Source: a virus. Taken from it: a stretch of DNA of 64,000 nt. A model generated the notes under the pieces. The model had not been told where the DNA came from and ran no database searches. It saw only the letters and a list, made by a program, of their open reading frames with translations. This document shows, piece after piece, positions 33,386-60,678 of this stretch. The DNA is taken from positions 124,001-188,000 of IMG/VR virus record IMGVR_UViG_3300040801_002290; one strand, written 5' to 3'. Positions within the stretch are counted from its first letter, which is position 1; each line of letters begins with the position of its first letter. Made by a program: the position numbers and the translations under genes.

Positions 33386-33715
33386 TCAACCACCTTCCGT
33401 ATAAATATTTCCTTCAAAGTCAACAGGGTCTTCAAAACTAACAACTTCACTTCCCCAAGTTATATCCTCTGCCCAGTATACAAATATAAAAGTCCCTCTC
33501 TCGGTTTTTACATACATAATGTCAGTTCTCGTGCCGAGTCCCTGTTCAAGAGGCTCAAAAATCTCCTCTTCTGCGGTAGTCCCAGCGTCAAGCGCCTCCC
33601 AGGACTCAAAAACATCCTGTAGAAAAGGCTCCTCACTGAGTATGGTGAATTTCGGGTAAAAATCGTTTACAGAGTCTTTGTAAACAACTTGTCCCCTAAT
33701 TCTTTTTTTATCCAT
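33386..33715 (-). CDS. N-terminal-module protein, short member (109 aa)
   Basis: This is a nearly stand-alone copy of the N-terminal module shared by ten proteins here. SVNDFYPKFTILSEEP matches HVNDIYPKVLIHPDN (43842 gene) and ALNDYYPKVALVGED (58357 gene), and the second half keeps the IMYVKTERGTFIFVYW strand pair. No C-terminal propeller or Ig domain follows. It may be a capping or competitor version of the module, or the base to which other parts attach. Its stop is four bases upstream of the collagen-fibre ATG. Confidence 0.65.
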   Translation of the reverse strand: MDKKRIRGQVVYKDSVNDFYPKFTILSEEPFLQDVFESWEALDAGTTAEEEIFEPLEQGLGTRTDIMYVKTERGTFIFVYWAEDITWGSEVVSFEDPVDFEGNIYTEGG

Positions 33716-34037
33716 AAATCACCATTTTCATAGTTTGTATACCGGCTCTTTTCAGTTTGAGAAGAAGTTGTCTAGTACTGACGCTCTCGTCTTGATAAAT
33801 AAAAAGCCTATTTTTCCAACCCTTAGTTACACTAAGTCTCTGGTGTAGGTCGTTACCACCTACTGTTCCAGTAAAAATTATTATATCATACGAGCCGACC
33901 TGTTGACTTGGAACGGTAGTTATATCTGTTACCCAGTTAACTTCGTAACTATCCAGAGAGGGAAAGTTAAGGTCGAGCCATCTCTCTATATTTGAAAGAA
34001 ACTCTTCCCTGTCTTCAAGTACTAGAATCTTTTTCAT
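33708..34037 (-). CDS. Receiver-like (CheY-fold) small protein (109 aa)
   Basis: The sequence begins MKKILVLEDREEFLSNIERW, with the acidic pair ED at the end of the first strand as in response-regulator receiver domains. YDIIIFTGTVGGND gives the strand that normally carries the phosphorylatable Asp, here IIIFTG without an Asp at the usual place. RLFIYQDESVSTRQLLLKLK follows. The fold may be a receiver that has lost phosphorylation, or another Rossmann-like fold. It is unexpected inside a fibre operon. Overlaps the next gene by eight bases. Confidence 0.5.
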   Translation of the reverse strand: MKKILVLEDREEFLSNIERWLDLNFPSLDSYEVNWVTDITTVPSQQVGSYDIIIFTGTVGGNDLHQRLSVTKGWKNRLFIYQDESVSTRQLLLKLKRAGIQTMKMVIYG

Positions 34038-34222
34038 TACTCTACCTCTCTCGGAAATTCTAAATAAGTCACTGTGATGTCCGGGTTTTTTAGCCGGGAA
34101 GAAACATCAACTCCAAAAATAATATCTGGAACAGTCGTAGACAAAACAACCACAAATGGGTAGTTTCTCTTTTCCCACTCGTATAGTGCTATGTTGCTTT
34201 GGAATGTGGCTGTTTTTATCAT
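34037..34222 (-). CDS. Small hypothetical protein (61 aa)
   Basis: A small mixed alpha/beta sequence (SNIALYEWEKRNYPFVVVLS, then RLKNPDITVTYLEFPREVE). Its stop shares a base with the start of the receiver-like gene, so the two are coupled and may form one functional unit. No family recognised. Confidence 0.55.
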   Translation of the reverse strand: MIKTATFQSNIALYEWEKRNYPFVVVLSTTVPDIIFGVDVSSRLKNPDITVTYLEFPREVE

Positions 34223-34224
34223 GT

Positions 34225-34791
34225 TTAATAAGGAAAAAGTGTAAGGAAAAACTCAACGTCTAGTACCTGAAACCCAGCCAAATCAGACTCAAGGAACCAC
34301 ACATCTATGTAGGTAGAGGTTACGGTTACATGTGAGGGAGAAACCTGAGCAGCAGTCAGGAGGGGCTGAACTCCACCGCCAGATATAATGCTGTTGATGC
34401 GTTGAACCTGTACAGCGAAGTTTGTGTTACCTTGGCTGTGAGTAATACGGAACTGTGAATCTCCGGGAAATGCAGCTACTCCCAGATTTGCGTGCCCAGA
34501 TACCTTAGTGGGGGTCGTCGCAGCGTACGCCACTCGTATAGATTGAGGCAATTTGTCTAATTGTGGTTGAATTGCACTCGTCACACCACTCAACCACACT
34601 AGTTCCGTTGAGGTGGTCGTGGAAAAATTAATATTACCCAAACTGTCTGAAATCAAGGCCCGACTCGCAACAAGGACAGGCGCTGTGCTTAGGGTACCCC
34701 CAACAACTCCATTTGCGCTCTTTACAATAGCGTCCCCCTCTGCGACATCATCCCAACCAGGGGGAAGAAATTTCTTTAATGTGCTAGCCAT
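34225..34791 (-). CDS. Tail fibre-like protein (188 aa)
   Basis: Contains TSTELVWLSGVTSAIQPQLD, a phrase typical of fibre shafts (ELxWLxGVTSxIQxQLxxK). The C-terminal part, FRITHSQGNTNFAVQVQRIN and ending FQVLDVEFFLTLFPY, is a beta domain like the fibre tips at 8951-10906 and 10919-11527 (ITHNFGTRDVVVEVYD). The start overlaps the stop of the 49 aa membrane gene by eight bases (ATGGCTAG). Predicted short fibre or fibre-tip protein. Confidence 0.7.
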   Translation of the reverse strand: MASTLKKFLPPGWDDVAEGDAIVKSANGVVGGTLSTAPVLVASRALISDSLGNINFSTTTSTELVWLSGVTSAIQPQLDKLPQSIRVAYAATTPTKVSGHANLGVAAFPGDSQFRITHSQGNTNFAVQVQRINSIISGGGVQPLLTAAQVSPSHVTVTSTYIDVWFLESDLAGFQVLDVEFFLTLFPY

Positions 34792-34933
34792 AAATCACCT
34801 CTGCCGTGTTTACTAAAACCGCTTCATTCCATATAGCCCTTAAAGAGAGGGCAACAAAAAACCAGGTATGAGTATGCCCTATAATCACCCAGTAAAGAAT
34901 AAACAGGACTGCCAGAGCCCCATAAATCCACAT
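34784..34933 (-). CDS. Small membrane protein (49 aa)
   Basis: A gene below usual size cut-offs. The ATG at 34933 shares a base with the stop of the 763 aa fibre (TAATG), and its TAG overlaps the next start by eight bases, so both ends are fitted into the operon. It begins MWIYGALAVLFILYWVIIGH, a strong membrane segment, followed by a second hydrophobic stretch (TWFFVALSLRAIW). A role in virion attachment to, or penetration of, the membrane, or in lysis timing, is possible; no evidence decides. Confidence 0.7.
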   Translation of the reverse strand: MWIYGALAVLFILYWVIIGHTHTWFFVALSLRAIWNEAVLVNTAEVIYG

Positions 34934-37224
34934 TAAAAATCTAGCTCCGAAATATCAACTCGCGCAGTCCAAGTTATATTTTTAGCCGCTTCTCCGGTAA
35001 CCTGAATTCTGGCATTAGCAAAGTTGGCAAGCGGGTCAACAGGAGCCGGGGTAATGGTTTCTACGTCAATAGACACATCCCACGCAGGAACGTCTTTGTG
35101 AATCTCGTTAATAATCGGAGTTCCCAAGAGCCTACCAACACCCTCTCTTACATCAGTTGCGAAGGTAATCTCCCAATAGGCAGACTCGTCTGCAACTTCA
35201 TCGAAGTTGGTGGCTACTAGATAAACCTTAAATCCCGTCACGGTTCTGTCAAGTAGCGGAACGTGGTCGGAGGTATCCAGCCTCAAGTACGTGGGAGTAG
35301 CGTCAGTGGTTCTGACAAGCATCTGCATACTGCTGGCCTTTCCTCCAGTTCTTATAGCGTTAGGGGTGCCAGTCCTGTTTAAATCGGCATTAACAGAGTT
35401 ATAACCTGAAATTACAAACTCTACGTCCCTACGAGCATAAGAGGCCCTTGAAGCCGGGGAAATTCCCACGTACTCAACTCCCGCCCTGTCTATAACGTTG
35501 CTCTCTCCTCCAAGGATTGAGCGGAACCAGGCGTTTCCTGAAATTTCATTAAAAGAGCCGCCTAAAATAAAACCATGGTCAGAGGAGGTTGTTATTGAGT
35601 TACTGCTTCCGCCAAAAATAGCGTTGTTATTTCCCACATTCTCAATATTGTTTGAAACTCCGCTAACTATCATTCCATAACCATTGGCACTTGTTACTGT
35701 GGAGCCCTCAGAGGAAATTATTGCCCCTAAATAAGAGTCTGTAACAACCCCGGTGGCTGACCCTATAACAGTAGAATAGCTAGAGGTGACTACCTCTGAG
35801 CTATCTCCCCCAAAAAGACTGTTGGCAAATCCAACATTTCCCACAAGTCCGGTGATTCTGCCAAACCCGCCGTCTGAGGTTACCGTTACGCTTGAGTCCG
35901 AGTAATTTATGTATGCATTAGCACCTACAGCTACAGAGTCAGACGAGTTTCTTACCTCGGCCAACGTTCCCAATACTACACCATTAGCGGAGTCCCTAAG
36001 GTGCGTGTATGAGCCAATACTTACACCACTGTTAGAGTTTTGTAAATCTACTACTCTACCCACCCCAACAGCGTCAGTTGAGTTTCTGACTAGACCATAA
36101 CCGGGTACTATACCAATGGATGAAGTGGAGCTTTGGTCAACAATAGCTCCCCACCCCATAGAGATTGCCCCTTCTGACGTGTCTACACCCGCCTGAAAAC
36201 CTATAGCAATAGAGTTGTCAGATGTGTTTATTGAGGAATTTGCTCCAATAGCAATAGAACTATTCACAGTGTCTATAGTGGAACCGGACCCTATAGCTAA
36301 GCTGTCGTATGCATCAAAAGCGTAAACACCGTCTCCCATAACGATGTCGCTGTAGCTAGTCTGCAATCCGGGAAGAGTCGCACCAAAATATCCAGACGTG
36401 CCCCAGTAAAATGAGGTATCCACATTTTCAATGCTACTAAATGTACCAAACATTGAGCTACCGTACACAAGATAAGGGGCCAGACCAACACCCCCAATAG
36501 TGCTGTCAGACGTTTCTGAGACCACATGGTTTCTTCCTACAACCGTGTTGTCAGCGGAGGTATCCAGAACTTGTATTGCAGAGCCTATAGCAACAGAGCC
36601 AAGAGCGGTACCAGCCACTGTTGGTAGAGTAAACCCTGTTGTTCTTCCGTCGTCCGCTATGTACGGAGAGCCGCTGCCCCCGCCAGCACCTATAGCTTCA
36701 TAGGCTTCTTTCAAGGCCCCTTCAACATTTGCAGAGGTATAATAATTGTCCGCGTCGTCTATGGAGATGGAGGTGGCTGGAAAACCAGAGGGAACCGTGA
36801 TAGCTTCTATAGCATCATTTATTTCTATAAGAACGGTTTCTACATTATCTCCCGAAAAGTTTTCTCCGGTATCAGCAACTGCTATTTGAGAAGCGGTAGC
36901 AGAACTAAGAGCAATAGAAAGATTTATTATACCCCCGTATAGATAGTCAAGAGCAGCCTCTACATCCGTACTGGTAAACCCAGCCTCTGAGCTTGTAAAA
37001 GTAACAATTGAAGCATCTACCGAGGTTAGAAAAGCTTCTAAATAAGTCGGGTTTATTTTACCGCCGACAATTAAGTCTCCTACCTGTTCCGGAGTAAGAC
37101 CATTCAGATAACTCTCCAAAGAGTTAACAAAAATACGCAACAACTCCAGAGAGGTGTTGAGTTTTACTCTACCCTCCGCTAGTTTATCAGGTGCTAGAAT
37201 CTCATCAAACGGTATGAGTGGCAT
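34933..37224 (-). CDS. YadA-like beta-roll tail fibre (763 aa)
   Basis: The N-terminal 110 residues are homologous to the collagen-like fibre at 32610 and form a shared attachment region. The central 400 residues are repeats of the type SIAIGSGSTI, SIAIGANSSI, SIAIGFQAGV and SVAVGANAYI, the left-handed beta-roll of YadA-like trimeric adhesin heads, followed by a more diverged roll with FGGDSSEVVTSS and ILGGESNVI. The C-terminal 150 residues form a beta domain with LRLDTSDHVPLLDR. It looks like a trimeric adhesin fibre that binds the host surface. The stop is shared with the 49 aa gene. Confidence 0.8.
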   Translation of the reverse strand: MPLIPFDEILAPDKLAEGRVKLNTSLELLRIFVNSLESYLNGLTPEQVGDLIVGGKINPTYLEAFLTSVDASIVTFTSSEAGFTSTDVEAALDYLYGGIINLSIALSSATASQIAVADTGENFSGDNVETVLIEINDAIEAITVPSGFPATSISIDDADNYYTSANVEGALKEAYEAIGAGGGSGSPYIADDGRTTGFTLPTVAGTALGSVAIGSAIQVLDTSADNTVVGRNHVVSETSDSTIGGVGLAPYLVYGSSMFGTFSSIENVDTSFYWGTSGYFGATLPGLQTSYSDIVMGDGVYAFDAYDSLAIGSGSTIDTVNSSIAIGANSSINTSDNSIAIGFQAGVDTSEGAISMGWGAIVDQSSTSSIGIVPGYGLVRNSTDAVGVGRVVDLQNSNSGVSIGSYTHLRDSANGVVLGTLAEVRNSSDSVAVGANAYINYSDSSVTVTSDGGFGRITGLVGNVGFANSLFGGDSSEVVTSSYSTVIGSATGVVTDSYLGAIISSEGSTVTSANGYGMIVSGVSNNIENVGNNNAIFGGSSNSITTSSDHGFILGGSFNEISGNAWFRSILGGESNVIDRAGVEYVGISPASRASYARRDVEFVISGYNSVNADLNRTGTPNAIRTGGKASSMQMLVRTTDATPTYLRLDTSDHVPLLDRTVTGFKVYLVATNFDEVADESAYWEITFATDVREGVGRLLGTPIINEIHKDVPAWDVSIDVETITPAPVDPLANFANARIQVTGEAAKNITWTARVDISELDF

Positions 37225-37234
37225 TCATTTACTC

Positions 37235-39411: not shown

Positions 39412-39420
39412 TCAGCCTCC

Positions 39421-39792: not shown

Positions 39793-39810
39793 TAGTTACC
39801 ACCAATCTCA

Positions 39811-41328: not shown

Positions 41329-41402
41329 GAAATCCTCCCTCCTATAGGAGATGAATGCTTAGTTTGTTCCTCATTCTATCAAAACCCCAGGATTATTACT
41401 AC

Positions 41403-43465: not shown

Positions 43466-43484
43466 ATGTATTACCTCTCATGGA

Positions 43485-43802: not shown

Positions 43803-43850
43803 GAATTTCTACAAACTCATTATATCATCGAGCAGGAATATCTACAAACT
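43803..43850. repeat. Two 15-bp direct repeats around a promoter
   Basis: GAATTTCTACAAACT (43803-43817) and GAATATCTACAAACT (43836-43850) differ at one base. They flank the -10 box, and the second overlaps the -35 box and the stop codon of the upstream gene. Possible operator pair. Confidence 0.5.
43819..43847 (-). promoter_or_regulatory. Promoter (TTGTAG-17-TATAAT)
   Basis: On the minus strand, TTGTAG (43847-43842) and a perfect TATAAT (43824-43819) are 17 bases apart, ahead of the leader hairpin and the 68 aa gene. Confidence 0.55.
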
Positions 43851-44150
43851 GTAAGTTACGAACTCCCCATTATAGGTTACCGGAACTCCTCCAAAAGTAA
43901 CTATACTCTCAAGCACAACACCGTTGTCAATTCTAGCAACATAGGAACCTTCTGAGGAGGTAGCGTATATTACAACGTCCTCACCAAAGAAATTTTCTAA
44001 ACTTTCCAAAATCAAATCCCCGGTGGAAAAAGCCTCAAAGTTAATCTGTGCTGGAGAAGGTATTATTTCCGAAGAATTATCAGGATGAATTAGGACTTTG
44101 GGGTATATGTCATTCACATGCTCTGGTGAGATAACTATTCTTCCTTTCAT
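43842..44150 (-). CDS. N-terminal-module protein, short member (102 aa)
   Basis: A second short copy of the module that starts the propeller proteins: HVNDIYPKVLIHPDNSSEII, then LILESLENFFGEDVVIYATS and SEGSYVARIDNGVVLES. Compare NDYYPKVALVGEDFVTIP in the 58357 gene. No domain is added after it apart from a final beta hairpin (VPVTYNGEFVTYSL). Ribosome site AGGAAC. Role inferred as attachment or capping of related adhesins. Confidence 0.65.
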   Translation of the reverse strand: MKGRIVISPEHVNDIYPKVLIHPDNSSEIIPSPAQINFEAFSTGDLILESLENFFGEDVVIYATSSEGSYVARIDNGVVLESIVTFGGVPVTYNGEFVTYSL

Positions 44151-46093: not shown

Positions 46094-46099
46094 TATAAT
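46094..46099 (+). promoter_or_regulatory. Leaderless -10 box for 809 aa propeller gene
   Basis: TATAAT ends six bases before the ATG at 46106, so the start codon should be at or near the mRNA 5' end. The -35 is weak. The same six-base geometry recurs at 58300, 59350 and in the right-end region. Confidence 0.6.
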
Positions 46100-48543: not shown

Positions 48544-51168
48544 ATGAAAAAACTGACACCTAAAACATCGGATTTTTTACCAGGTAGAAAAGCCTTTTTC
48601 AAAAGCGACGGAACTTACTCTGTAGAAGAGGTAGATACCTTACCAGAGAATTTTGAATTTGGTGTTGAGATACCGACAGAAAACGGAATTTACACTCTGG
48701 AAACCTCTTTTGGAGCTTTTTTGATGTCCGTTACAGTGGAGGAAGTAGTTATTCTCCCCTGGAAATCCACCAGTGGGACCGGTAATGACTATGTTTTTGA
48801 CGCTACATATGACGACCGGCTTACACAAAAGGCTGGTCTCTTGCCGGTCATACTTCCGATAGACGTTTCTCAGTTTGACCTTGACGGTTACCGGGTAAGT
48901 CCCTTAACAGAGATGAGTTCTTACTGGGAAGCACCTACACATGCTACTCATTTTGAAGCCGGTGACTTATTCGTGTTTTTCAACGGGGCTTTTGCGGTAA
49001 ACAAAAATACCTACGAAGTTGAGTGGATATTTAGCGAGGAGAACAGGTGGCCATTCCCAGCACTTGACAGAAGCTACGGTGCTGCCAATTCTTCCGGAAA
49101 TGAAGACTACTACGTGGGTATTAGTGGTTATGGAGTTGAAGGTCTATATGTACTTAAAACCCAAACCGGTACTCCCATCTACAGAGAAGAACCACTATAC
49201 TCCCAACCGTATTTAAACGAGGGTGTACACGTTTTCCCTTCCGGAAGTAACAACAAATTTTTTCTTTGGGATGGAGGGGGGTGGTCTGGGCAGGCTACTC
49301 CACAAGTGTACATACTAGAAATAGATGAACTAGATAATGTCACCATAACTCTGCATCCAGAAAACGAAACCATGTCTTCCGGTGGAAACTACCTTATGAA
49401 AGAAAGACTGTTCATGGCCTCTAAAAGTTTCTTTGTAGACAAGGAAACCGGAGAATATTACTACTCTAGTGGGGATAGTCTTACAAAGTTCAATCAAGAC
49501 GACTCAGTTTCCTGGTATCTAGACTACGACGACGGTGCTTTAGGAGCAGCAGGCTGGTTCCCACAGGGTTGGGGGGCTTTCTGTATTAAAAGAAAAGGAA
49601 AGATAATAGTTTTCTCAAGGTGGACAGTTCCTCTTATCATAGACGACGTGACAGGAACTTGGGAAATTGCAGAGATAGACCCACTAGCCACAGTAACTGG
49701 GGATTATGATGGTTTTGTAGAATACCCTCTAACTGATTTTTGGGATAGTTATGAGGTAGAAATGCCAAGAGTAGTCTCTGATGATATAGACTACCTACCG
49801 ATGCTGAATGAGTTTAGTAATTCAGGAGATTTTGTGGAGCTTCTAGTTACTGACTTGGATACATTTAATGTTAGAAGTATTGCGGTTATTCCAGGCGAAG
49901 GTGAGTCTGTGTTTTATAACCAAACAGGATGGCCAATTATAAATCACAGAACAGGGGTAGCATACATAAGGGTTTTTAACAGAAACTCCGGTGGAGACAA
50001 TTTATATAGACTAATTGGATGGTCTAACGAAGGAGTAGTAACAAATATAATTCTTTCCTACTGGAATCATGAAGGAACAAACGGGTTTTACATAGAGGAC
50101 TTGGCCCCCAGTCTAATGTTGGCCGAATCTGGAGATTTACTCATACATATAGAAAATTGCATAGCAAAATATGGAGATGAGGTTTGGACTCTAAATGTTG
50201 GACAGAACGCCCAGTTAGTGGCTGACGAATGGTATACAACTAAAAATACCACTTGGGACCCAGGAGTGCCTCTGTTTGAAGTCGGAATGACTACTAACTC
50301 ATGCGCTACCAACGTCTATGGGGAAATAAATACTAGATACTTCCCTTACTCGGTTAGAACCTTTGCAGACACAACCGACGGTTCCGGTATTTTTAATCAA
50401 TCATTGCTGCCTGGATTCTCAGCCAGTAGCTCTCTTGATATAACGAACCTGTTCCCGACTGGTGTTCCAAATGAATTCATATCCACTCCCAGAGTAAGTG
50501 GAACTACCACGTCCGCTACTGTAAGAAATTTAAACCTTGAGACCGGCTCAGTCACAGACCTTGTTCTGCCAGACATAACCACGGGATTGGTCAACGCCTC
50601 AAGGTACATAAGAGAGTCGGCAGTCATGCGACCAAATGGAAATATAGTATTCCTTTATCACAAAGTTTACAACTTTGAGTCCCCAGAGTTGAGAATGTTT
50701 GAATACGACGGGGCTTCTTGGTCGGCTAAATCAAATACTATTTACCCAGCCTCTGAAAACGACCCCAATAATCCTATCGGAAGCTCTGGCTATAGAAGAC
50801 ATCTGTCTGTTTATCACAATGATAAGGTGTACTCCATACTGTTTAAGAGAGTTGCAGGGGACGACTTCCATGTCAGAGAGTACAGCTTCGATACTGACAC
50901 CTGGACTGATTATGACTCTATCCCCGTCCCAGAAGTCCCAATAAACAGGCTATCAATTAGTGCTAGCTATAACAACGGGAAGGTATATTTTACTAACGGA
51001 TATGTGTATGACATAGATGAGAAGGTGCTATTCACACTCCCTAATTTCCCATTTCCAGATTTCAGCAGTGCGAGATATGTCACATTTAGAAATAACTGTT
51101 TGATTTTCCTTGACTGGGATTTAATACTGCACGTATATGCTTTGGAAAATACCCCGGCTCCATACTAA
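48544..51168 (+). CDS. Propeller adhesin with shared N-terminal module (874 aa)
   Basis: Eight bases after the 809 aa gene. The module is clear: KKLTPKTSDFLPGRKAFFKS, then LPENFEFGVEIPTENGIYTL and an ILPWKS end. PQQ-like blades follow (AVNKNTYEVEWIFSEENRW, FVDKETGEYYYSSGDSL). After an EWYTTKNTTWDPGVPLF linker come kelch-like blades (MFEYDGASWSAKSNTIYP, EYSFDTDTWTDYDSIPVP, GYVYDIDEKVLFTLPNFP). It is a close paralogue of the 878 aa protein on the opposite strand, with the same domain order. Ends at a bidirectional terminator. Confidence 0.75.
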   Translation: MKKLTPKTSDFLPGRKAFFKSDGTYSVEEVDTLPENFEFGVEIPTENGIYTLETSFGAFLMSVTVEEVVILPWKSTSGTGNDYVFDATYDDRLTQKAGLLPVILPIDVSQFDLDGYRVSPLTEMSSYWEAPTHATHFEAGDLFVFFNGAFAVNKNTYEVEWIFSEENRWPFPALDRSYGAANSSGNEDYYVGISGYGVEGLYVLKTQTGTPIYREEPLYSQPYLNEGVHVFPSGSNNKFFLWDGGGWSGQATPQVYILEIDELDNVTITLHPENETMSSGGNYLMKERLFMASKSFFVDKETGEYYYSSGDSLTKFNQDDSVSWYLDYDDGALGAAGWFPQGWGAFCIKRKGKIIVFSRWTVPLIIDDVTGTWEIAEIDPLATVTGDYDGFVEYPLTDFWDSYEVEMPRVVSDDIDYLPMLNEFSNSGDFVELLVTDLDTFNVRSIAVIPGEGESVFYNQTGWPIINHRTGVAYIRVFNRNSGGDNLYRLIGWSNEGVVTNIILSYWNHEGTNGFYIEDLAPSLMLAESGDLLIHIENCIAKYGDEVWTLNVGQNAQLVADEWYTTKNTTWDPGVPLFEVGMTTNSCATNVYGEINTRYFPYSVRTFADTTDGSGIFNQSLLPGFSASSSLDITNLFPTGVPNEFISTPRVSGTTTSATVRNLNLETGSVTDLVLPDITTGLVNASRYIRESAVMRPNGNIVFLYHKVYNFESPELRMFEYDGASWSAKSNTIYPASENDPNNPIGSSGYRRHLSVYHNDKVYSILFKRVAGDDFHVREYSFDTDTWTDYDSIPVPEVPINRLSISASYNNGKVYFTNGYVYDIDEKVLFTLPNFPFPDFSSARYVTFRNNCLIFLDWDLILHVYALENTPAPY

Positions 51169-51174
51169 GAAAAA

Positions 51175-51194
51175 GGGCTCCTTTTACGGAGCCC
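51175..51194. terminator. Bidirectional terminator
   Basis: GGGCTCC and GGAGCCC arms with a six-base loop, preceded by AAAAA and followed by GTTTTA, terminate both the plus-strand 874 aa gene and the convergent minus-strand 498 aa gene. Confidence 0.8.
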
Positions 51195-51206
51195 GTTTTA
51201 CTAACC

Positions 51207-52703
51207 TCATACTTGAGGCAGAATCTCTAGCCTATTTACAGTAAACTCATCGAGAGAGTAACTGTAGTGTACCCAGTAAACATAGTTTCCTATTATGGAC
51301 AGGTTTGAGTTGCCGTTATACTGCGCGTCCACCTCTCGTATAAAGAAATACCCAGAAGAATCAATTATCTCAACTTCATTGTCGTATGAGTGTGGGAGGA
51401 CAGTCCCGTCGTTATCTACGATAATTGGGATTCTAGCGTCCATGTCATACCCTGGTTGCTCATAAAAAGTAGTTATGGACACTGAGTCAGTGACTTTTGA
51501 GTCCAATTTGTATATTTTATGATAGTCCTGCAAGTATATAAACCCGTCTGGGTCAACATAGGAGATATTTCCATCCCCCTCTATAATCCCAGTGACATCC
51601 CAGGTATTAACAACCTGTCCATCCTCTCTTCGGTACTCATTTACAGTATAGGTTAGGTTACCAGAGACTCTATTGTCACCCCTAGTGCCCACGATGTTGC
51701 CGTTTGGCAGTATTCCAACAAATTCTTCGATGTATGAGCCGCCCTCACCACCAACTGCGGTACCAGTGTTATCATCTTCCCACAGTAATTCGTAGGTAGA
51801 CAGGTCTATAGCTCTAATTCTTCTTCTGGTAGGGCTTACTTGCATGTCTCCTATGCATATGGTGTTCGTGTTTTCATCAAATTTAAAATTAAACATCTGA
51901 TGGTAACCAAAGCCAATGCCGTTTTGTGTGGGAATCTCAGTGTGTACAAAATTACCAAGATGCTCCAGAGTCAAGTCCTTGAATCTGTAGACAGAGGTGT
52001 AATTATCTCCGATAATCATGAACCTGTTATTGGGCAGTTCCATGATTCCAGCGTATCTAACCGGGTCCGCATCCGGTATTGGGTAGCTATAAGAAACCTC
52101 GTTATCTGTGTCTATATAGTACAAAAGGGCCTCTGCGGTATCAAAAGCTAAAAACCCGTTGAACTGCCTGGAAAGTATATAATCAAAGGTGTAGATACTT
52201 GCTTCTGCGTCGGATAGATGGGAATTTATAAGAGTGTATGAGGAAAAATCCGTAGGAAACTTAATTACCCCGTAAGGAATGGCTGTGTTGGTATCTATGT
52301 CCCTGGTCATACAGCCGAAAACGTAATAATCCCCAAAATCTATCAGGCTGTCGTAGTAGGCTTCATAAGGTAGGCTAGGTAAGGTGTCCTTAGTAAAAAC
52401 AACTTCCTGAATCCCCAAACTGCCACCGTTTTCAAAACCCATGGAGTTATTAAGTCGAAAAGTTCCGTCACCGTAGCTGCCAGTTCTGGTTGACCACAAA
52501 ATACTTATTTCCTTCGAAATTTTTAAAACAAAGCTACCTAAAACAGAAGAGATAAAATATACTCCCTTCTCGGATGGCAACTCAACACCGAAGGAGAATC
52601 CCTCAGGTAGTGTTTCCGAATTAGAAATCTCATAGTTTCTATCGGGTTTAATAACCACGGATTTACCGGTAAAACCTTCTAACTTTGGAATGAGTCTTTT
52701 CAT
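51207..52703 (-). CDS. Propeller adhesin with shared N-terminal module (498 aa)
   Basis: The module is KRLIPKLEGFTGKSVVIKPD, then LPEGFSFGVELPSEKGVYFI. The rest is one beta-propeller of PQQ/WD-like blades (AFDTAEALLYYIDTDNEVSY, RAIDLSTYELLWEDDNTGTA, YLQDYHKIYKLDSKVTDSV). It lacks the second kelch part of the larger relatives. It is last in a minus-strand group of four module proteins that runs from 58293. Predicted virion-displayed binding protein. Confidence 0.7.
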   Translation of the reverse strand: MKRLIPKLEGFTGKSVVIKPDRNYEISNSETLPEGFSFGVELPSEKGVYFISSVLGSFVLKISKEISILWSTRTGSYGDGTFRLNNSMGFENGGSLGIQEVVFTKDTLPSLPYEAYYDSLIDFGDYYVFGCMTRDIDTNTAIPYGVIKFPTDFSSYTLINSHLSDAEASIYTFDYILSRQFNGFLAFDTAEALLYYIDTDNEVSYSYPIPDADPVRYAGIMELPNNRFMIIGDNYTSVYRFKDLTLEHLGNFVHTEIPTQNGIGFGYHQMFNFKFDENTNTICIGDMQVSPTRRRIRAIDLSTYELLWEDDNTGTAVGGEGGSYIEEFVGILPNGNIVGTRGDNRVSGNLTYTVNEYRREDGQVVNTWDVTGIIEGDGNISYVDPDGFIYLQDYHKIYKLDSKVTDSVSITTFYEQPGYDMDARIPIIVDNDGTVLPHSYDNEVEIIDSSGYFFIREVDAQYNGNSNLSIIGNYVYWVHYSYSLDEFTVNRLEILPQV

Positions 52704-52709
52704 TTAAAA

Positions 52710-53885
52710 TTACCTAACCTTTATAAAATACATTAATGGTGCTTCTTCATAGCTGGGTGCTGCATAACTTCCTGTGTAAAAAATAGCTCCGTCTACTTCT
52801 ACCATATTACCTCCATAGTCTTCGTTTGGAAAAGCCAGAACGTTATATTCTAACTCAAAAGTATTCACATCAATGGAGTGAATATAAGTAGCAGTCGCGT
52901 CTATTTGTTCATAACCCTCAAAATAAGCTTTTCCATCTACAATTGCACATGGGTAATAGTTGGTGCAGTGGTGCCAAATATTAGCGGCCTCCAAATCTGC
53001 CTGCCCAACCACCTCCCACCCAGAGGCAAATGTGTACCTATACACGTTAGTATTTAGAATTGGGTCCTCTAAAGCCACGTCTATAGACCCTCCGAAAAGA
53101 TAAATCTCTGTTTCTGTATAATAAAAGTAGGGAAATTTAATTCTTTCTGGCAACTCAGGAAGCTCTACCCAAATATCTTCTCTCGGGTCGTAGTAATGGT
53201 GAGATTTTAGGTGTCTAGTAATAGGGGGGACGTTTTGGTTACTATAGCCGCTAAATGTGTGTATATACTCAAGACCATCTCCGTGCTTTATAACGGCAAT
53301 ACTAAAATCCGTGCCAAGACTGAATTCGTCTCTATCGGCCATTCTTTTCCAAGTATTTCCCTTTTCTAAATCACAAACATAAGTATCTGGAATGTATGAG
53401 GTTGTGTCCCAATCGTATATTCCCGTAACCAGAATTTTTGTTTCATCAAAGACTATGTGAGAGGTAGAGTAAAGGTTTTTGGGGAACATTGAGAGAACGG
53501 GATAATTCCACTCTCCTGATTTTAAATCGTAGGTACCAACGAACCTATTACCTTCACTGTTTGCGTAGGAGATAAGACCAAGCCCTATATATAGTTTATC
53601 TCCTATTTTTCTAATCATGCTTGTATAGGACGAGGTAAATGGTGGCTGAGGTACAGGAAAGTAGTCCGAAGACTGGGAATAAATCCCATTTGGGAGTTCA
53701 AACTCCACTACCACCCCTTCCGAAGAAATTTTTCTGTAAAGTTGGCCCCATCTTGACTCGGTTGGAGAAAGGAGAGATTCTCCAAACCCCACTTCCGGAC
53801 TTCCAGAAGGAATAATCTCGTAGCTTTCATCGGATAATTTTATCTTGGGATACAGGTTGTTTATTTTCTTAGTAAAAACCTTCAT
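52710..53885 (-). CDS. Kelch-type propeller adhesin with shared N-terminal module (391 aa)
   Basis: The module is TKKINNLYPKIKLSDESYEI, of the NDxYPK subgroup. It is followed by about six kelch blades (TYDLKSGEWNYPVLSMFP, YVCDLEKGNTWKRMAD, HYYDPREDIWVELPELPE, NVYRYTFASGWEVV, HSIDVNTFELEYNVL). The start overlaps the stop of the upstream gene (TAATG). It combines the module of one subgroup with a propeller like that of the other, evidence for domain shuffling. Confidence 0.75.
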   Translation of the reverse strand: MKVFTKKINNLYPKIKLSDESYEIIPSGSPEVGFGESLLSPTESRWGQLYRKISSEGVVVEFELPNGIYSQSSDYFPVPQPPFTSSYTSMIRKIGDKLYIGLGLISYANSEGNRFVGTYDLKSGEWNYPVLSMFPKNLYSTSHIVFDETKILVTGIYDWDTTSYIPDTYVCDLEKGNTWKRMADRDEFSLGTDFSIAVIKHGDGLEYIHTFSGYSNQNVPPITRHLKSHHYYDPREDIWVELPELPERIKFPYFYYTETEIYLFGGSIDVALEDPILNTNVYRYTFASGWEVVGQADLEAANIWHHCTNYYPCAIVDGKAYFEGYEQIDATATYIHSIDVNTFELEYNVLAFPNEDYGGNMVEVDGAIFYTGSYAAPSYEEAPLMYFIKVR

Positions 53886-55639
53886 TAGACTACCTCAACC
53901 GTAATTATCAGAGGTTCTACTATCTGGTTATTGGTAAAATCACCAGAAATAGCACCAGGGTTAATCGTTAGGGTTAGTGTCTCTCCTGTAGTTAAGGTTA
54001 GGTTTTCTATATAGAGTCTGGATAGACCGTAACTTTCGTTAATAGTTAGGGGCTCTATATCGCCCGATACCGTGCCAGTAAGAGAAATTAAGCTGTTATC
54101 TAGAAGTAGAATATCTTCACCAAAATCAACACTTAATAAAGTATCTCCGTTCCATAACTGTGCTTCCTTTACAATTAGTTTAGGCGGTGTCTCTCCCGGA
54201 CTTCCAAAGCTCTTTATTCTATTGCCAGTTGAAATTAGAATTTTTCCGTCAAATGTTACTGTCGGAGGAGGGGAATAAGGGCTTAGAAAAGGACTTGGGT
54301 CAGAGATTCCAATAACTCCATCTTTGCTAACAAAGACCATACATCCATTGTAGTCAGTATCCTCATAAACGAAGAAACAGGCGATTCCGTTCCTGAATGT
54401 TAAAGGTAACCCCCTTATAATACTGTTAATGACATACCCAGGTAGAAACTCTTTTTTCTTAACCCGCCAATTTTTAACGTCAAAAAATGTAACTTCTAAC
54501 ATTGAAGGGTTAGACACGTCAGTGTAGTAGAAAAAAGTATCCTCATCCAAAAACGCCCCTAGCTGAACAAAACTATTATCCGGGTCACCACTCTCGTCAA
54601 GAGTGTTTCTTAAAAGTTGTCCCGTAGTTCCATCCACCTCTACAAGTCTGACCCTAGAGTCGCTGTCTGAGGTAATCCCACCATCCGTAGTACCGAAGTA
54701 AAGACCTAACAGCAAGTTCCCTGTGTATGGGTTTAGTTGCATTAGCATTATTTCATCTACATCAGTATTGGACCAAAGTATCTCTCCAGTCAAATTATCA
54801 ACTTTCGTCAATCCACCAAAACTGTCAGACATTGCGTAGGTACCGGACTGGGAAATATGGACATAATTATTTCCAAACCACTCATTAAATGGAATTATAT
54901 CATCTTTTACCAAAACTAAACTGTTATTTTCAACACGAAGAAGTCTCTCGGTACCAGCCTGTCTATTTTTATAAAAAAATGTATCCCCCTCAATGTGATT
55001 CATCATGTTTACGGTTGGTGTATTTTGATTACTATAAGGACCGAGATACTCATAATTTTCGTAAATTACATTTCCCTCGTAATCCACTACAGACAATCCA
55101 GCATAATGGTCTACACCTACCGTCTTCCTGGTGGGCATGACTATATAATTTTCCATAAATAAACATAGCCAAGCACTTCCTCCCCTGCCTCCAGAAGCAG
55201 AGTAAGACCAAATCTCCTGACCATCAGAAAAACACACTATCTTGTCAGGAGTGCCAGACCCACCATAAATGTAGGAGTACTCAAACTCCCCCCTGTTAAC
55301 CCACACTGGGTAGTAATTCCCGAAAATAGATGGAACAAAATAATCAGAGTAGTCCTCAAAGATATTATTTTCGCTAAACCGATAGTCCAACTCTATGTGA
55401 TTTCTTCTGTAGGGAGAAGACCCGTGATTATAGCCCCACTGGGAAAAGGGTCCAGTCCTAATTAACTTAGCACCGTCAGAGTCTGAAAATACGTAATTAG
55501 CTTCCTCGGGGGCTTCAAAACCCTTTTCGTATCCTTCCGGAGGAGAGGAAGACAGGGAGTATCTAACATCCTCTCCCAGAAAAAGTTTTCTACCTTCTGA
55601 AAATCCTGATGTTTTTGGCTTAATTTTTATTGTTTTCAT
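53885..55639 (-). CDS. Propeller adhesin with shared N-terminal module and Ig-like end (584 aa)
   Basis: I place the start at the ATG at 55639 (MKTIKIKPKTSGFSEGRKLF), by alignment with MKKLTPKKSGF of its paralogue. An upstream GTG at 55654 is possible. PQQ-like blades follow (LTKVDNLTGEILWSNTDVDE, LVEVDGTTGQLLRNTLDESG). The last 95 residues form an SbsA-type Ig-like domain (LTLTTGETLTLTINPGAISG) like the one in the 184 aa protein at 58357. Propeller plus Ig domain suits a surface adhesin on a stalk. Confidence 0.75.
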   Translation of the reverse strand: MKTIKIKPKTSGFSEGRKLFLGEDVRYSLSSSPPEGYEKGFEAPEEANYVFSDSDGAKLIRTGPFSQWGYNHGSSPYRRNHIELDYRFSENNIFEDYSDYFVPSIFGNYYPVWVNRGEFEYSYIYGGSGTPDKIVCFSDGQEIWSYSASGGRGGSAWLCLFMENYIVMPTRKTVGVDHYAGLSVVDYEGNVIYENYEYLGPYSNQNTPTVNMMNHIEGDTFFYKNRQAGTERLLRVENNSLVLVKDDIIPFNEWFGNNYVHISQSGTYAMSDSFGGLTKVDNLTGEILWSNTDVDEIMLMQLNPYTGNLLLGLYFGTTDGGITSDSDSRVRLVEVDGTTGQLLRNTLDESGDPDNSFVQLGAFLDEDTFFYYTDVSNPSMLEVTFFDVKNWRVKKKEFLPGYVINSIIRGLPLTFRNGIACFFVYEDTDYNGCMVFVSKDGVIGISDPSPFLSPYSPPPTVTFDGKILISTGNRIKSFGSPGETPPKLIVKEAQLWNGDTLLSVDFGEDILLLDNSLISLTGTVSGDIEPLTINESYGLSRLYIENLTLTTGETLTLTINPGAISGDFTNNQIVEPLIITVEVV

Positions 55640-55656
55640 ATTTTTATTAAACACCC

Positions 55657-58293
55657 CTAAAACGGTGGAGAAAGACTTTCTTCTAGCGGCCTAAACGCTA
55701 AATAACTTGAACCTATAGCATGATAATAGGCAATAAGATAATCCCCCCAGGCTTGAAGGGTTATTCTTGAGGCACCAATTGCTCCAGAAGGCCCATACAG
55801 GGCATTAAAGTTTGTTGAGTAGGGGACTTCTGCGAATTGCCCAGAGTCAATGTTGTACTCAAAACCATTCGAAAAATATAAAATTCCGTTCCTCTCAGTT
55901 GTGTTTACCCCGGAAAAACTTATCGGGCTGTCGTAGTAGTTGGACCCAACTGGCGTAGAAACAGATGAGTGAATAGTCCAGGAAGGCGTGTCCCAATTGT
56001 AAACAGAGAAAACGGCATCTCCACCATCTACGGCACGAAACGCATACAGAGAGTCGTTGTGAATGAAATATCTTTGGGCTGAGGCACTTGTTAGGTTGAG
56101 AGTTGGTCCAGTCAACCATGAAGAGCCGTCGTGCTGCATAATAATTGTTTGAGTGAAGCTTGCCCTAACAACTACAGGAGTGCCGTCCTGCCTAAAGAGA
56201 TATCTGTACGGCCTGATTGTTGCTGAAATTCCATAGTACGGATACCCAGGCACGTTTCCCATTTCTCCAGTAATAGCGTTAAAGAATTGTGACCCACCGC
56301 TACTTGCGGTTGAAACACAAACAACGGTCTCCTGGTCTGGTGCAAGAGTGGTTGCAAGAGACGAGAGACTTGCGGCAGAGAAACCAGTCCTGAGAAAGAA
56401 AAGCCTCCCCGTCTCCAAATTAAGAGTGTTTGTTCTCCTAGTTAAGGGTATAAAGTTAGCCGAAGATGGTAGCTGACTGGTAGATAATATGGCAGCGGGG
56501 TTTAGGGAGTAATCAGAAAACGGCCTTAATCCCGTATTCCAATGCTCGGATTTAAAATCATACCACTCATCCTTAACTAGGGTTACTGTAGACCCCTCGT
56601 TTTTTCGTGGTCTTACACTAAGAGAGGATGAGAAAATTTGGTTTGCGTAGGTCATTCCATAAATTCTACCTTGACTGGAAACAGCGGATTGTAGGGAGTA
56701 AGAGGTAACCTGGGACGTATAATCAAAACCAAAGTCTATCTTCTCATAGGATATGGTGTCAAAATTAGCCCCCAACCTCACCAAAAACTGACCACTAAAT
56801 TGGTTTCCTCCAAAATCATCTGGCTCATACAGGTTTACGAAGTAGAAATACTTCCCGTCAGCTTCTCGTTGAAGAATACCAGTACCACCATCTAATGGGT
56901 AGGCAAAGAAGGCAGAGGAACCCGGAAAAGCAAAATCTCTATAGTCAACCCACTCCAAGGTGTCGATATCAAAATGACCATATACAATAGCCTCTTGTTC
57001 CAAAAACTCTGTGTGACCTATGAAAGGTATTTTACTACCCTCTGGAGCTTTGGGGTAAACTATATTAATAAACTGTCTTTCAATAGTATATTCTCCGACT
57101 TTTTCATTTAAAGAGGTCGGTAGAGAAATCTCTAATCCAGTAGAATCGTCTAGTACGGTAAGACCAGCAGACTCCCCCACAGAAGGCATGTTTCCGTAAC
57201 ACGGCAAAAAAGCTATTCTCCCACCGGCTTTACAAAAGTTATAAAAGATGTAGTCAGGCGCATTAAATGTTGGCAAGTCATAGAGGTCGTAAATCCACTC
57301 TATGCTATGTGAAGAGTTAAACTTTATTAAACTTCCCGTCTCTTGTGACCAATTGCTGAAATAAAGCAAATAATAGGACCCTTCCTCTGTGTCCAAATAG
57401 AATCCATTGTTCCAAATACCCCAATACTGATAGTAGGAGTTTTCATACCAACCCCAAAAAACTCTCTTGCCAGAGTTCAAAGCACCACTTTCTGGATGCT
57501 CCACTATAGTCACTCTACTGCCTGGGTCAGCAGTTGGGTCAACAGTAATTATATACCCTCTACCAACATTGCTGGTATAATCATCCCCAATGTACAGAAA
57601 TTCATTCTTACCGTTTAATTGGAGTAGGTTCCCCTCTTCTGGGTAGTCAACGTTAAGAAACACGGATTGGGGAACTTCTTCTATAACAGCACCACTGGAG
57701 GTATCCAATACAACTAAGTTGGTGTCCTCATGGAGAAATATAAAAAACTCGTCATTGACCACAAACCTGCTGCTGTGCAACCCCCACGGGTAGGATGGAG
57801 AACCATTCTGGTCAAGGTAAACCCAATTTATATCTCCTGTGTCCCTGTTAATGGACATGGGGTTATGGGGAACGATAAGCGAGTTTCCGATTTCTACGAA
57901 ACTTCTTGTGTAATTAAAATTACCGTCGTCAAACCGACCACCAAAAACATATACACCGTCCTGATAAGCCCCAGTAGATTCACCGTCCGTAAGAACAAAT
58001 AAATCATGAGTATCCCTGTCTGGGATGACAGCGCCAGCAATATAAGAATTATTTCCCAATAGACCGGTGGAAGTTGACCAAGGAAGTATTTCTATACCAT
58101 CCCCCAGAATTTTTATATACATAGCCCCCAACTGAGTCCGGGCAAAATAATTGCCCTCTTCCTCGGGAAGCTCAAAGCCAAATACAGTATTCTCTGGCAA
58201 GGATTCGCTTTCGCCTATCTCGTAAGTAAAATCCTCACGTACGAATAGGGATTTTTTAGTAAACCCTGATTTTTTAGGAGTAAGCTTTTTCAT
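55657..58293 (-). CDS. Propeller adhesin with shared N-terminal module (878 aa)
   Basis: I start at the ATG at 58293 (MKKLTPKKSGFTKKSLFVRE), not at an in-frame ATG 12 codons upstream. A TATAAT ends six bases before 58293, and the shorter form aligns with its relatives. Module LPENTVFGFELPEEEGNYFA is followed by PQQ-like blades (NRDTGDINWVYLDQNGSPSY, LDTSSGAVIEEVPQSVF), an EWYDFKSEHWNTGLRPFS linker near residue 600 and kelch-like blades (ITGEMGNVPGYPYYGI, YNWDTPSWTIHSSVST, FEYNIDSGQFAEVPYST). Same architecture as the 874 aa protein. The C-terminal 90 residues are the part kept by the stub at 58923. Confidence 0.75.
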   Translation of the reverse strand: MKKLTPKKSGFTKKSLFVREDFTYEIGESESLPENTVFGFELPEEEGNYFARTQLGAMYIKILGDGIEILPWSTSTGLLGNNSYIAGAVIPDRDTHDLFVLTDGESTGAYQDGVYVFGGRFDDGNFNYTRSFVEIGNSLIVPHNPMSINRDTGDINWVYLDQNGSPSYPWGLHSSRFVVNDEFFIFLHEDTNLVVLDTSSGAVIEEVPQSVFLNVDYPEEGNLLQLNGKNEFLYIGDDYTSNVGRGYIITVDPTADPGSRVTIVEHPESGALNSGKRVFWGWYENSYYQYWGIWNNGFYLDTEEGSYYLLYFSNWSQETGSLIKFNSSHSIEWIYDLYDLPTFNAPDYIFYNFCKAGGRIAFLPCYGNMPSVGESAGLTVLDDSTGLEISLPTSLNEKVGEYTIERQFINIVYPKAPEGSKIPFIGHTEFLEQEAIVYGHFDIDTLEWVDYRDFAFPGSSAFFAYPLDGGTGILQREADGKYFYFVNLYEPDDFGGNQFSGQFLVRLGANFDTISYEKIDFGFDYTSQVTSYSLQSAVSSQGRIYGMTYANQIFSSSLSVRPRKNEGSTVTLVKDEWYDFKSEHWNTGLRPFSDYSLNPAAILSTSQLPSSANFIPLTRRTNTLNLETGRLFFLRTGFSAASLSSLATTLAPDQETVVCVSTASSGGSQFFNAITGEMGNVPGYPYYGISATIRPYRYLFRQDGTPVVVRASFTQTIIMQHDGSSWLTGPTLNLTSASAQRYFIHNDSLYAFRAVDGGDAVFSVYNWDTPSWTIHSSVSTPVGSNYYDSPISFSGVNTTERNGILYFSNGFEYNIDSGQFAEVPYSTNFNALYGPSGAIGASRITLQAWGDYLIAYYHAIGSSYLAFRPLEESLSPPF

Positions 58294-58299
58294 AAGAGT

Positions 58300-58305
58300 A
58301 TTATA
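58300..58305 (-). promoter_or_regulatory. Leaderless -10 box for 878 aa propeller gene
   Basis: On the minus strand TATAAT ends six bases before the ATG at 58293. The -35 region falls inside the terminator hairpin of the upstream gene, so terminator and promoter are fused. Confidence 0.6.
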
Positions 58306-58314
58306 CAAAAATAA

Positions 58315-58335
58315 CCCGGAGCATAACACTCCGGG
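58315..58335 (-). terminator. Terminator of the 184 aa gene
   Basis: CCCGGAG and CTCCGGG arms with a seven-base loop, followed on the minus strand by TTATTTTT. It overlaps the promoter region of the 878 aa gene. Confidence 0.75.
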
Positions 58336-58356
58336 CTATTTCGTTACTTAGTTTTA

Positions 58357-58911
58357 TTATACGCCAGCAGCTACGTACGTAATTGTGTAGACACTTTCAA
58401 GAACATTCTCGCTCGGGTCTCCGGAGAATGCGCCGACAGGAATTGTCAATACAAGCTCTGTCTGTCCAGTAGCAATGGTGGGTCCACTAATTGTAAGTGT
58501 GTCGTTAAGTACTGTAGCAGAAGCAGAAATATCTACCGGAGTTGCGGCAGGGTTTTCTACTAGAGTTACAGAAGCCAAATCCACGGCCTGAATATTCTCG
58601 CTAAACTGAATAACGATATCCGTGGCCATAGCTCCACCGGCTGTAGGGTAATTTATTGTTCCACCAGCTACAGGAGTGGCAGTTAGTACTTCCAAGAAGG
58701 TTTCTGTAGCCTTTAGAACTACAGTTCCATCATTGGTCTGAATAACGAACATATCTTCGCCGGTAACTTTTTCAGCGGGCTCCAAGACGTACTCATACTC
58801 TGCCGGTACATCTGCTACGGCGGGGATAGTAACGAAATCCTCACCAACTAGAGCTACCTTTGGGTAATAGTCGTTTAGGGCGACTCCGAATGCTTTTCTA
58901 ACGAATTCCAT
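58357..58911 (-). CDS. N-terminal-module protein with SbsA-type Ig domain (184 aa)
   Basis: Residues 1-75 are the module (ALNDYYPKVALVGEDFVTIP; DMFVIQTNDGTVVLKATET). Residues 80-180 form a Big_5/SbsA-type bacterial Ig domain: TPVAGGTINYPTAGGAMATD, VIQFSENIQAVDLASVTLVE, and a final GQTELVLTIPVGAFSGDPSE that mirrors the end of the 584 aa protein. A strong AGGAGG ribosome site precedes the ATG. It shows the module combined with an Ig domain and no propeller. Probably abundant; possibly a decoration or stalk protein. Confidence 0.75.
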   Translation of the reverse strand: MEFVRKAFGVALNDYYPKVALVGEDFVTIPAVADVPAEYEYVLEPAEKVTGEDMFVIQTNDGTVVLKATETFLEVLTATPVAGGTINYPTAGGAMATDIVIQFSENIQAVDLASVTLVENPAATPVDISASATVLNDTLTISGPTIATGQTELVLTIPVGAFSGDPSENVLESVYTITYVAAGV

Positions 58912-58922
58912 TTAATTCCTCC

Positions 58923-59306
58923 TTAATAAGGGCTTATAGTGTCAGAGATTGCGTATGCAGCTAAAGCTCCTGACGCAGTTGTCATAAACAACAAATCGCC
59001 AAGTCTAAAAATGGGGTTTTGTAAAATTCCCGAGCTGTTTGAATAGGGTCTACTGTAGTAACTGTCTCTAAAGTTGAATGGTATTATTCCAAATTCCTTA
59101 TTTTGCACGTTATAGTAGTATGAGTTTGCGAAATGTACAGTTCCCTCGTAAACGCAGTGGGTCAGGGTTTCAAACCTGAAATCATCTTGCGTATAGCTAC
59201 TATGCCCTATTATAGCATCGTATTCGGGAGACGGTAGATTTGGAACTGACTGTGTATCATACAAAGTTTGTTGAGCGGTGTTGAAATCGTATTCAGTATT
59301 ATACAT
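58923..59306 (-). pseudogene. C-terminal stub of a propeller adhesin (127 aa)
   Basis: The frame aligns only with the C-terminal end of the large propeller proteins: GTVHFANSYYYNVQNKEFGI corresponds to GILYFSNGFEYNIDSGQFAE, and the end AAYAISDTISPY to YLAFRPLEESLSPPF. A stop codon (TAG) stands two codons before the ATG, and no module or other blades precede it. An orphan AGGAGG lies about 24 bases upstream. I read it as a decayed member of the family. A functional single-blade protein cannot be excluded, since the remaining frame is intact. Confidence 0.6.
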
Positions 59307-59325
59307 AATCTAGAGGGAAATTTTT

Positions 59326-59355
59326 TTGCTACCTCCTGTGTTTTTGGAGTAAAAT
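59326..59355 (+). promoter_or_regulatory. Leaderless promoter (TTGCTA-18-TAAAAT)
   Basis: TTGCTA (59326-59331) and TAAAAT (59350-59355) precede the ATG at 59362 by six bases. Overlaps the upstream region of the stub on the other strand. Confidence 0.6.
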
Positions 59356-59361
59356 ATACCC

Positions 59362-60678
59362 ATGAAAAAACTTCAAATTAAAAGACAAGACTTCTCTTCT
59401 GGGAAAAAAATATTCTTCTTCGAAGATAATTCATTCACAGTTTTATCAGAGGCACCAGAAGAATTTTCTTTTGGTGTGGAGATACCCAATGAAGAGGGGA
59501 TTTTTACCTTTTCCTCCGGACAGTCCTCGTATGTACTAAAAACCGGAGCAAACAGACACTTCTACGTCTTCGTTAATAGAGAAGAATTTTCCCTATCAAC
59601 AACCGGAGTGTCCTTTACTAAAGTTACCTACGAAAACGAGGTAACAATAGAAGAAGAAGTATATTTTCCAGATAGGGTAGTATACTACACCCTTTTCTTA
59701 GAAAATTTTGTCGTATGCCGAGAAAGAAACGTTCACGATACGGTGTTTGTTATAAATTTAAAAGAGAAGGTTGGCAGAGAATACTCGTTTCCAATATCCG
59801 TAGTGAATGGCTCTAGACTTTTTTATGGGGCAGAAGAAGAAGACAATACCGTCTACTTATATTCAAGGGACAGAAAAACATCTGTTCCCGTAGACCACAA
59901 ACTTCATGTCTCTTTAATAGATTGGGAAGCAGACACATTTACCCCGACAGAAATAACATTTCCGGGTATTCCAACTACCGCATCATCTATAGCGGTAGAC
60001 GGTGGAATAAAAATTACAGAAGATTTTATATACCTATACGACCCCAGAGGAACACCTAGAGGGTTGATTATAAAACTAGACAAGCAACTGAACTACTTAT
60101 ATCACCAAGAAGGTCTTCCAGAAACCTATCTGGAGCCCGATGACGTATTTTTAAACTGTTACAATATGGAGGTAGGTGGAGAATACATCTATCTCCCTGG
60201 GCACTCCTACAGGGGAGATGTCTGTGAGCTTTACTTGGCGGTTTTACAAGATACAGGAACAGAATTTTTACCCAACCCCGGATTAATCAGACTAGAAGAA
60301 TTTGTAGAAGAAGCAAATGATAGTCTTGGTTTTACAGAAATATACTATTCTCAAATAGAGGGGGATAATATATATCTGGTGGGATGGAGATGGGATAATT
60401 ACTTTAACGCCGGGGCTCAATATGAAAATGGAATCTACCTAGCCTCAGTTAGTTTGAATACCCTTGAAAAAAATTGGTCACGCATATATTACGAATCTGA
60501 GGTAGACTTTCCCTTTGAAGAAGGGGGAACGTATAAATTAATCGTAATCAATGATAGAATTTATGTTGCGATAGACACTTTCTCTTCTACTAACGAAGAA
60601 AAACTTTATGTGTTTTCTATTGAAAACGGAGATTTTATTGAGAGACTAGTACCTGGGTATAGGTACGTAATCATCTAA
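59362..60678 (+). CDS. Propeller adhesin with shared N-terminal module (438 aa)
   Basis: Module: KKLQIKRQDFSSGKKIFFFE, then APEEFSFGVEIPNEEGIFTF. It is followed by one propeller with blades such as HVSLIDWEADTFTPTEITFP, IIKLDKQLNYLYHQEGLPE, LASVSLNTLEKNWSRIYYES and LYVFSIENGDFIERL. It has a leaderless promoter and ends at a hairpin terminator, so it is a self-contained unit pointing opposite to its neighbours. It is the last AT-rich gene before the composition change. Confidence 0.7.
   Translation: MKKLQIKRQDFSSGKKIFFFEDNSFTVLSEAPEEFSFGVEIPNEEGIFTFSSGQSSYVLKTGANRHFYVFVNREEFSLSTTGVSFTKVTYENEVTIEEEVYFPDRVVYYTLFLENFVVCRERNVHDTVFVINLKEKVGREYSFPISVVNGSRLFYGAEEEDNTVYLYSRDRKTSVPVDHKLHVSLIDWEADTFTPTEITFPGIPTTASSIAVDGGIKITEDFIYLYDPRGTPRGLIIKLDKQLNYLYHQEGLPETYLEPDDVFLNCYNMEVGGEYIYLPGHSYRGDVCELYLAVLQDTGTEFLPNPGLIRLEEFVEEANDSLGFTEIYYSQIEGDNIYLVGWRWDNYFNAGAQYENGIYLASVSLNTLEKNWSRIYYESEVDFPFEEGGTYKLIVINDRIYVAIDTFSSTNEEKLYVFSIENGDFIERLVPGYRYVII

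Follow-up and report, generated by a model that had tools for sequence, protein, structure and literature searches.

A phage genome stretch encoding ten proteins with a common N-terminal module and exchangeable immunoglobulin-like, kelch and propeller-like parts: a candidate adhesin rack

Common N-terminal docks with exchangeable parts are already known in phages. The tail-fibre anchor of T7 and K1F is a conserved N-terminal part of ~140 residues followed by a swapped C-terminal domain (PMC6872550), with one fibre protein per phage and the swaps lying between phages. CBA120, phiK64-1 and RaK2 carry up to 11 receptor-binding proteins per phage, in which common N-terminal docks, T4 gp10-like ones included, precede exchangeable receptor-binding parts that are mainly trimeric beta-helix depolymerases (PMC6872550, PMC10253068). 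Immunoglobulin (Ig)-type capsid decoration proteins, namely Hoc of T4, pb10 of T5 and gp17 of N4, are accessory and thought to help host adhesion (PMC7602432); one is named per phage, and they belong to no known one-dock, many-fold family. In Pectobacterium phage CBB (vB_PcaM_CBB, KU574722), a large-genome myovirus, the kelch genes are grouped in a small cluster whose members were found in virions (PMC5259590). Here we analyse a stretch of 64,000 bases (the window; bases 124001-188000 of the 194,021-base metagenomic IMG/VR phage record IMGVR_UViG_3300040801_002290) in which ten genes encode proteins that begin with one N-terminal module and end in different C-terminal parts, here called payloads. 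We propose, with a probability of about 0.6, that they form a modular adhesin rack, that is, a docking plug displaying exchangeable adhesins on the virion. A first-pass annotation of the window had described a plug-and-display arrangement and knew of no phage system built this way; the published systems above contradict the latter statement, and CBB is closer still.

Genes are named by their start coordinate on the window, and all coordinates refer to the window unless marked genome. All ten genes open where the first-pass annotation had placed them, and their common module, which spans ~70-90 residues and not the ~60 first proposed, has two subgroups of five members each, SGF and YPK. A profile of the ten N-termini run against the 194-kb genome picked exactly those ten and nothing else at E < 1. 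Because that test is circular, we ran leave-one-out profiles, from which the E values in the following list are taken.

33386-33715, minus strand: YPK module alone, 109 amino acids (E 3e-4)
43842-44150, minus strand: YPK module alone, 102 amino acids (E 2e-8); seven strands in the AlphaFold model
46106-48535, plus strand: YPK module (46106-46330), central region that is possibly a propeller, and kelch domain (~48011-48406)
48544-51168, plus strand: SGF module (48544-48762) and probable double beta-propeller; full-length homolog of 55657
51207-52703, minus strand: SGF module (52494-52703) and a region common with 55657 to about residue 240
52710-53885, minus strand: weak YPK module (53679-53885) and kelch domain (~52902-53384)
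53885-55639, minus strand: SGF module (55433-55639), propeller-like region and C-terminal Ig-like domain (~53927-54136)
55657-58293, minus strand: SGF module (58078-58293) and probable double propeller
58357-58911, minus strand: YPK module (58672-58911) and SbsA/Big_5-like Ig domain (~58363-58695) (E 2e-5)
59362-60678, plus strand: SGF module (59362-59571) and beta-rich, propeller-like region

The leave-one-out profiles recovered the SGF members at E 6e-17 to 1e-5, and sequence homology within this subgroup is solid. Among the YPK members, 43842, 33386 and 58357 were clear (E 2e-8 to 3e-4), 46106 was borderline (E ~0.01) and 52710 weak (E ~0.1), and direct BLASTP comparisons linked 52710 to 58357 (E 0.006), 33386 to 58357 (E 0.003) and 46106 to 43842 (E 0.018). 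Judged by sequence, homology within the YPK subgroup is moderate to weak.

The nearest relative found is a metagenomic sister phage, G001 (201,951 bases; capsid protein 78-80%), which keeps the module family while its payloads differ. Adding its sequences brought in two further YPK members, at G001 24686 and 28651 (leave-one-out E 2e-8 and 2e-4). The first (G001 24686-25102) is the positional ortholog of 33386, with 30% identity (E 5e-10) and the same neighbours; in the second, the module sits on a larger protein of 272 amino acids, after which comes an overlapping frame of 243 amino acids, so that the payload is possibly split (both frames in L039 10001-11550). The YPK profile that included the G001 sequences also picked an eleventh member of the present family, outside the window at genome 36774-37676. 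Because this protein was already in the profile, the search that picked it is not independent, and it was not recovered by leave-one-out. The same search picked, weakly (E 0.09), the positional ortholog of the eleventh member in G001, and both genes are flanked by the same neighbours, a macro-domain gene and a PhoH gene. This brings G001 to three YPK members, two at positions matching 33386 and the eleventh member and the third at 28651. A gene at genome 104278 with a YPK-like look was dropped, as the profiles gave nothing above background.

We joined SGF and YPK as one family because of a rank test and a common predicted strand order. The SGF profile was used to score every N-terminus among the 220 gene-like frames, 215 of them non-SGF, and the YPK proteins 58357, 46106 and 52710 ranked first, second and third of these 215 and 43842 ranked sixth; a top three made up of YPK proteins is expected by chance about once in 80,000 draws. 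The test on the ranks of the whole set gave only p = 0.01, and the reverse direction gave p = 0.004. AlphaFold models built from separate alignments for one member per subgroup both contain seven strands in the same order and with similar spacing, at residues 4-6, 18-21, 27-30, 46-49, 59-65, 68-75 and 78-85 in 43842 and at residues 2-4, 16-20, 25-28, 37-42, 48-54, 57-63 and 68-74 in 48544. Confidence is moderate for residues 1-50 of 48544 (block means 70-83) and residues 11-50 of 43842 (~72-81) and lower elsewhere; the mean predicted local distance difference test score (pLDDT) of the 43842 model is 58.7. This limited confidence, together with an SGF-YPK profile-profile comparison that was not significant, would also suit two unrelated small N-terminal families that are alike only in being short, beta-rich and basic at the start. 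Against the three top ranks of 215, the matching strand order, the invariably N-terminal place of both modules and the single Ig type found behind both, we consider such a coincidence unlikely. The first-pass annotation had suggested aligning the N-termini and predicting their structures, and its grouping of ten proteins by one module is borne out by the profiles, leave-one-out, BLASTP and the rank test.

The module itself had no significant match in Pfam and no reliable match in PHROG, fold searches of the PDB and BFVD with the YPK model returned no match at E < 0.5, and across these four databases the module showed no homology to gp10-like domains or to anchors already described. PHROG 19466 (E 0.008) matched one member only and was taken as chance. 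Public phages contained no close relatives of these proteins or modules, and no relatives appeared in scans of viral contigs with 48544 and the SGF alignment as queries or of genome contigs with the capsid and portal alignments as queries. Among isolated phages, the terminase (42% identity) and the major capsid protein (51%) are closest to those of Thermus phage phiYS40 (NC_008584), yet phiYS40 has no match to the module, its arrays of ~500-bp genes included. Two large adjacent phiYS40 proteins (65088-74927; L031 5089-14928) have their first 77 residues in common (35%), a possible further case of a common N-terminal segment.

Payloads are absent in some members and in others consist of kelch, probable propellers or an Ig domain of SbsA/Big_5-like type. 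The kelch domain of 46106 is firm (Pfam Kelch_6 E 3e-8, above the cutoff; human KLHL20 in the PDB E 7e-9) and that of 52710 is a weaker match. PQQ-like propellers, also named at first, correspond to sub-threshold Pfam PQQ_2 matches (E 0.06-0.07, the best 0.063 in 53885) under the gathering score. A fold search with a low-confidence model of 48544 (mean pLDDT 39.7) yielded beta-propeller proteins, some of them kelch, and hardly anything else, a result suggestive of a double propeller. Pfam Big_5 gave sub-threshold matches to 58357 (E 0.0033, 18.6 bits against a cutoff of 23.6) and the eleventh member (E 0.00028, 22.0 bits); the two Ig domains are 46% identical, and the C-terminal end of 53885 weakly resembles the one in 58357 (E 0.018). 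Two proteins thus carry this Ig type behind a YPK module, and a third carries it behind an SGF module followed by a propeller-like region; its presence with both subgroups argues for domain shuffling. In 48544 and 55657, the one full-length homologous pair, the modules are 44% identical and the remainder ~25%, as would be seen if the interface were constrained and the payloads diversified. The 194-kb record contained no match to the reverse transcriptase family PF00078, which control genomes did match, so there is no sign of retroelement hypermutation. One further gene appears to have lost its module:

58923-59306, minus strand: candidate remnant (E 0.006 to 48544 residues 779-874)

By its sequence, it is a probable leftover C-terminus of a 48544/55657-type gene.

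Promoter-like and terminator-like sites bear on how these genes are expressed.

46094-46099, plus strand: -10 box TATAAT, 6 nucleotides upstream of the 46106 ATG; putative leaderless promoter
58300-58305, minus strand: -10 box TATAAT, 6 nucleotides upstream of the 55657 ATG (58293)
59350-59355, plus strand: -10-like TAAAAT, 6 nucleotides upstream of the 59362 ATG
51175-51194: bidirectional terminator-like hairpin separating the convergent genes 48544 and 51207
58315-58335: terminator-like hairpin between 58357 and 55657

The arrangement TATAAT-N6-ATG occurs at only two sites in the genome, those of 46106 and 55657, and in Deinococcus-Thermus a -10 box ~6-7 bases upstream of the start codon is described as common for leaderless expression (PMC12340547). 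Terminator-like hairpins are no more numerous in the region than in shuffled sequences. The -10 boxes at 46106, 55657 and 59362 support the separate transcription units of the first-pass annotation, and they also support an internal start for 55657; for 53885 and 55657, the most likely start codons are the internal ATGs at 55639 and 58293, respectively. With these two starts, the Ig-like end of 53885 and the eleventh member, the original list of ten is kept and extended. Because of the phiYS40 kinship and the leaderless-type promoters, we suggest, as a lead only, that the host of this phage lineage is probably from Deinococcus-Thermus.

Promoter-like -10 boxes of their own at three genes would also suit proteins that act inside the cell, as propeller and Ig scaffolds produced in the course of infection that bind host proteins in takeover or anti-defence and have the module in common as a recruitment tag. 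Kelch domains are typical protein-binding scaffolds, and no signal peptide was seen by eye. However, the genes lie in a late adhesin neighbourhood, and Ig domains of the SbsA/Big_5 type typically occur on surfaces and virions. PADLOC, whose library covers defence and not anti-defence, gave no match, and the kelch protein CBB_552 is found in virions (PMC5259590). We regard an intracellular role as quite improbable.

In the adhesin rack that we favour, the N-terminal module would be a docking plug for a repeated virion site, and the C-terminal Ig and propeller parts would face outward and bind the host surface or surrounding material. Because several proteins have the same plug, they could share or compete for one socket class, giving a mixed coat; SGF and YPK may be two plug types for two sockets, and the two module-only proteins would be caps, blank plugs or places where a new payload could be acquired. 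In hand are the common module, the variety of payloads, one Ig type on both plug types and the module family in G001. The genes also sit among fibre and virion genes and near that of a pectate-lyase-like protein, which we count in favour of the rack:

32610-33389: collagen-like tail-fibre protein, an adhesin-gene neighbour
34225: virion structural protein
37798: virion structural protein (PHROG 1645, E 3e-60)

These elements uphold the plug-and-display idea of the first pass as far as one module with exchangeable payloads is concerned; its location on the virion, the docking partner and the binding of receptors or decoys are what we infer, and this counts against the rack. So do the SGF-YPK profile comparison, the weakness of 46106 and 52710 as members taken singly, the lack of any trimerisation element seen by eye, unlike in most tail fibres, the place of the module genes outside the conserved tail cluster and the promoter-like sites of three of them.

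The same observations could be accommodated by a branching tail-fibre complex, in which the partner of the module would be a baseplate arm or a further receptor-binding protein and each protein has a fixed place, with no common socket. Such complexes are known for phages with many receptor-binding proteins, for example through the N-terminal domains of the CBA120 and RaK2 tailspikes (PMC6872550, PMC10253068), and the two module subgroups and the module-only proteins could be adaptor steps. Because Pfam scans of the ten proteins and of the neighbours tested revealed no T4 gp10-like docking domain, and no beta-helix or trimer signature is present in the ten, we think this arrangement improbable.

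The strongest outside support for the adhesin rack comes, by analogy, from phage CBB, which is a closer parallel than T7, CBA120 or RaK2. Nine CBB genes, translated here, are concerned:

CBB_536, 537 and 548-554: L055 14368-15689 and 20196-25464 (KU574722)

Each of the nine products opens with an MLPFxRhhxYGN-like peptide, behind which lie kelch, laminin-G or other domains. Seven of them were detected in virions by mass spectrometry (PMC5259590); the shared peptide is absent as text from that paper. Both phages are large-genome myoviruses, and both have an N-terminal element common to several genes and exchangeable payloads that include kelch propellers. The CBB element, however, is a peptide of ~13 residues, unlike the present module of ~70-90 residues. 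The CBB proteins match neither module profile, and none of the ten proteins starts with MLPFxRhhxYGN. As the CBB peptide bears no relation to the module described here, the two would have been invented separately.

As in CBA120, phiK64-1 and RaK2, a common N-terminal domain precedes divergent C-terminal domains here, but the payloads are propellers and Ig domains and no gp10-like dock was found. With T7 and K1F the present family has in common the conserved N-terminal part and the swapped C-terminal domain, although it lies within one genome, and with Hoc, pb10 and gp17 it has Ig domains in common. Different here are a dock without a match in the databases searched, propeller and Ig payloads, module-only members and the copy number on one dock family. 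We favour the adhesin rack because of module homology, predicted strand order, re-use of the Ig domain, the neighbours, G001 and the CBB precedent. It is conceivable, though doubtful, that a more general principle applies, in which proteins bearing one small beta domain are directed to a repeated socket on the virion, competition among many paralogs gives each particle a mixed coat, and module-only genes serve as permanent docks to which recombination adds new payloads; such a rack would have arisen independently of that of CBB, with an unrelated dock.

Several features around the module genes deserve mention. Structural-gene order is common to the window and G001 up to ~27 kb of the window, and the adhesin stretch from ~27 to 60.7 kb mostly differs. 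Neighbours in the adhesin stretch include a pectate-lyase-like protein; the 1779-amino-acid protein at 27269-32608 consists of DUF4874, DUF4832 and pectate-lyase-like parts, and its DUF part has a G001 homolog in a similar place. A second common N-terminal segment ('GRxKLNTSL', 46% over 99 amino acids) is present in the collagen-like fibre and in a larger fibre-like protein at 34933-37224, and also in G001 at 22686-24734. At 33708-34037 lies a small protein that, by eye, resembles a response-regulator receiver, and a similar G001 gene adjoins the module gene there. Next to the structural genes, a 577-amino-acid protein (13840-15573) matches a phage tRNA nucleotidyltransferase family (E 2e-72). 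The present phage has a single portal-like gene, whose counterpart in G001 (11159-13452) occupies two overlapping frames, through a frameshift or a sequencing error.

If the adhesin rack is true, one docking domain has been kept in eleven copies by a phage lineage, and what these copies carry ranges from no payload at all to a pair of propellers; CBB would be a second phage that came to a similar layout, with a different dock. The module would then be a small, testable docking tag for displaying folded domains on phage, possibly a thermophilic one, and the family would allow the acquisition of adhesins by phages to be followed.

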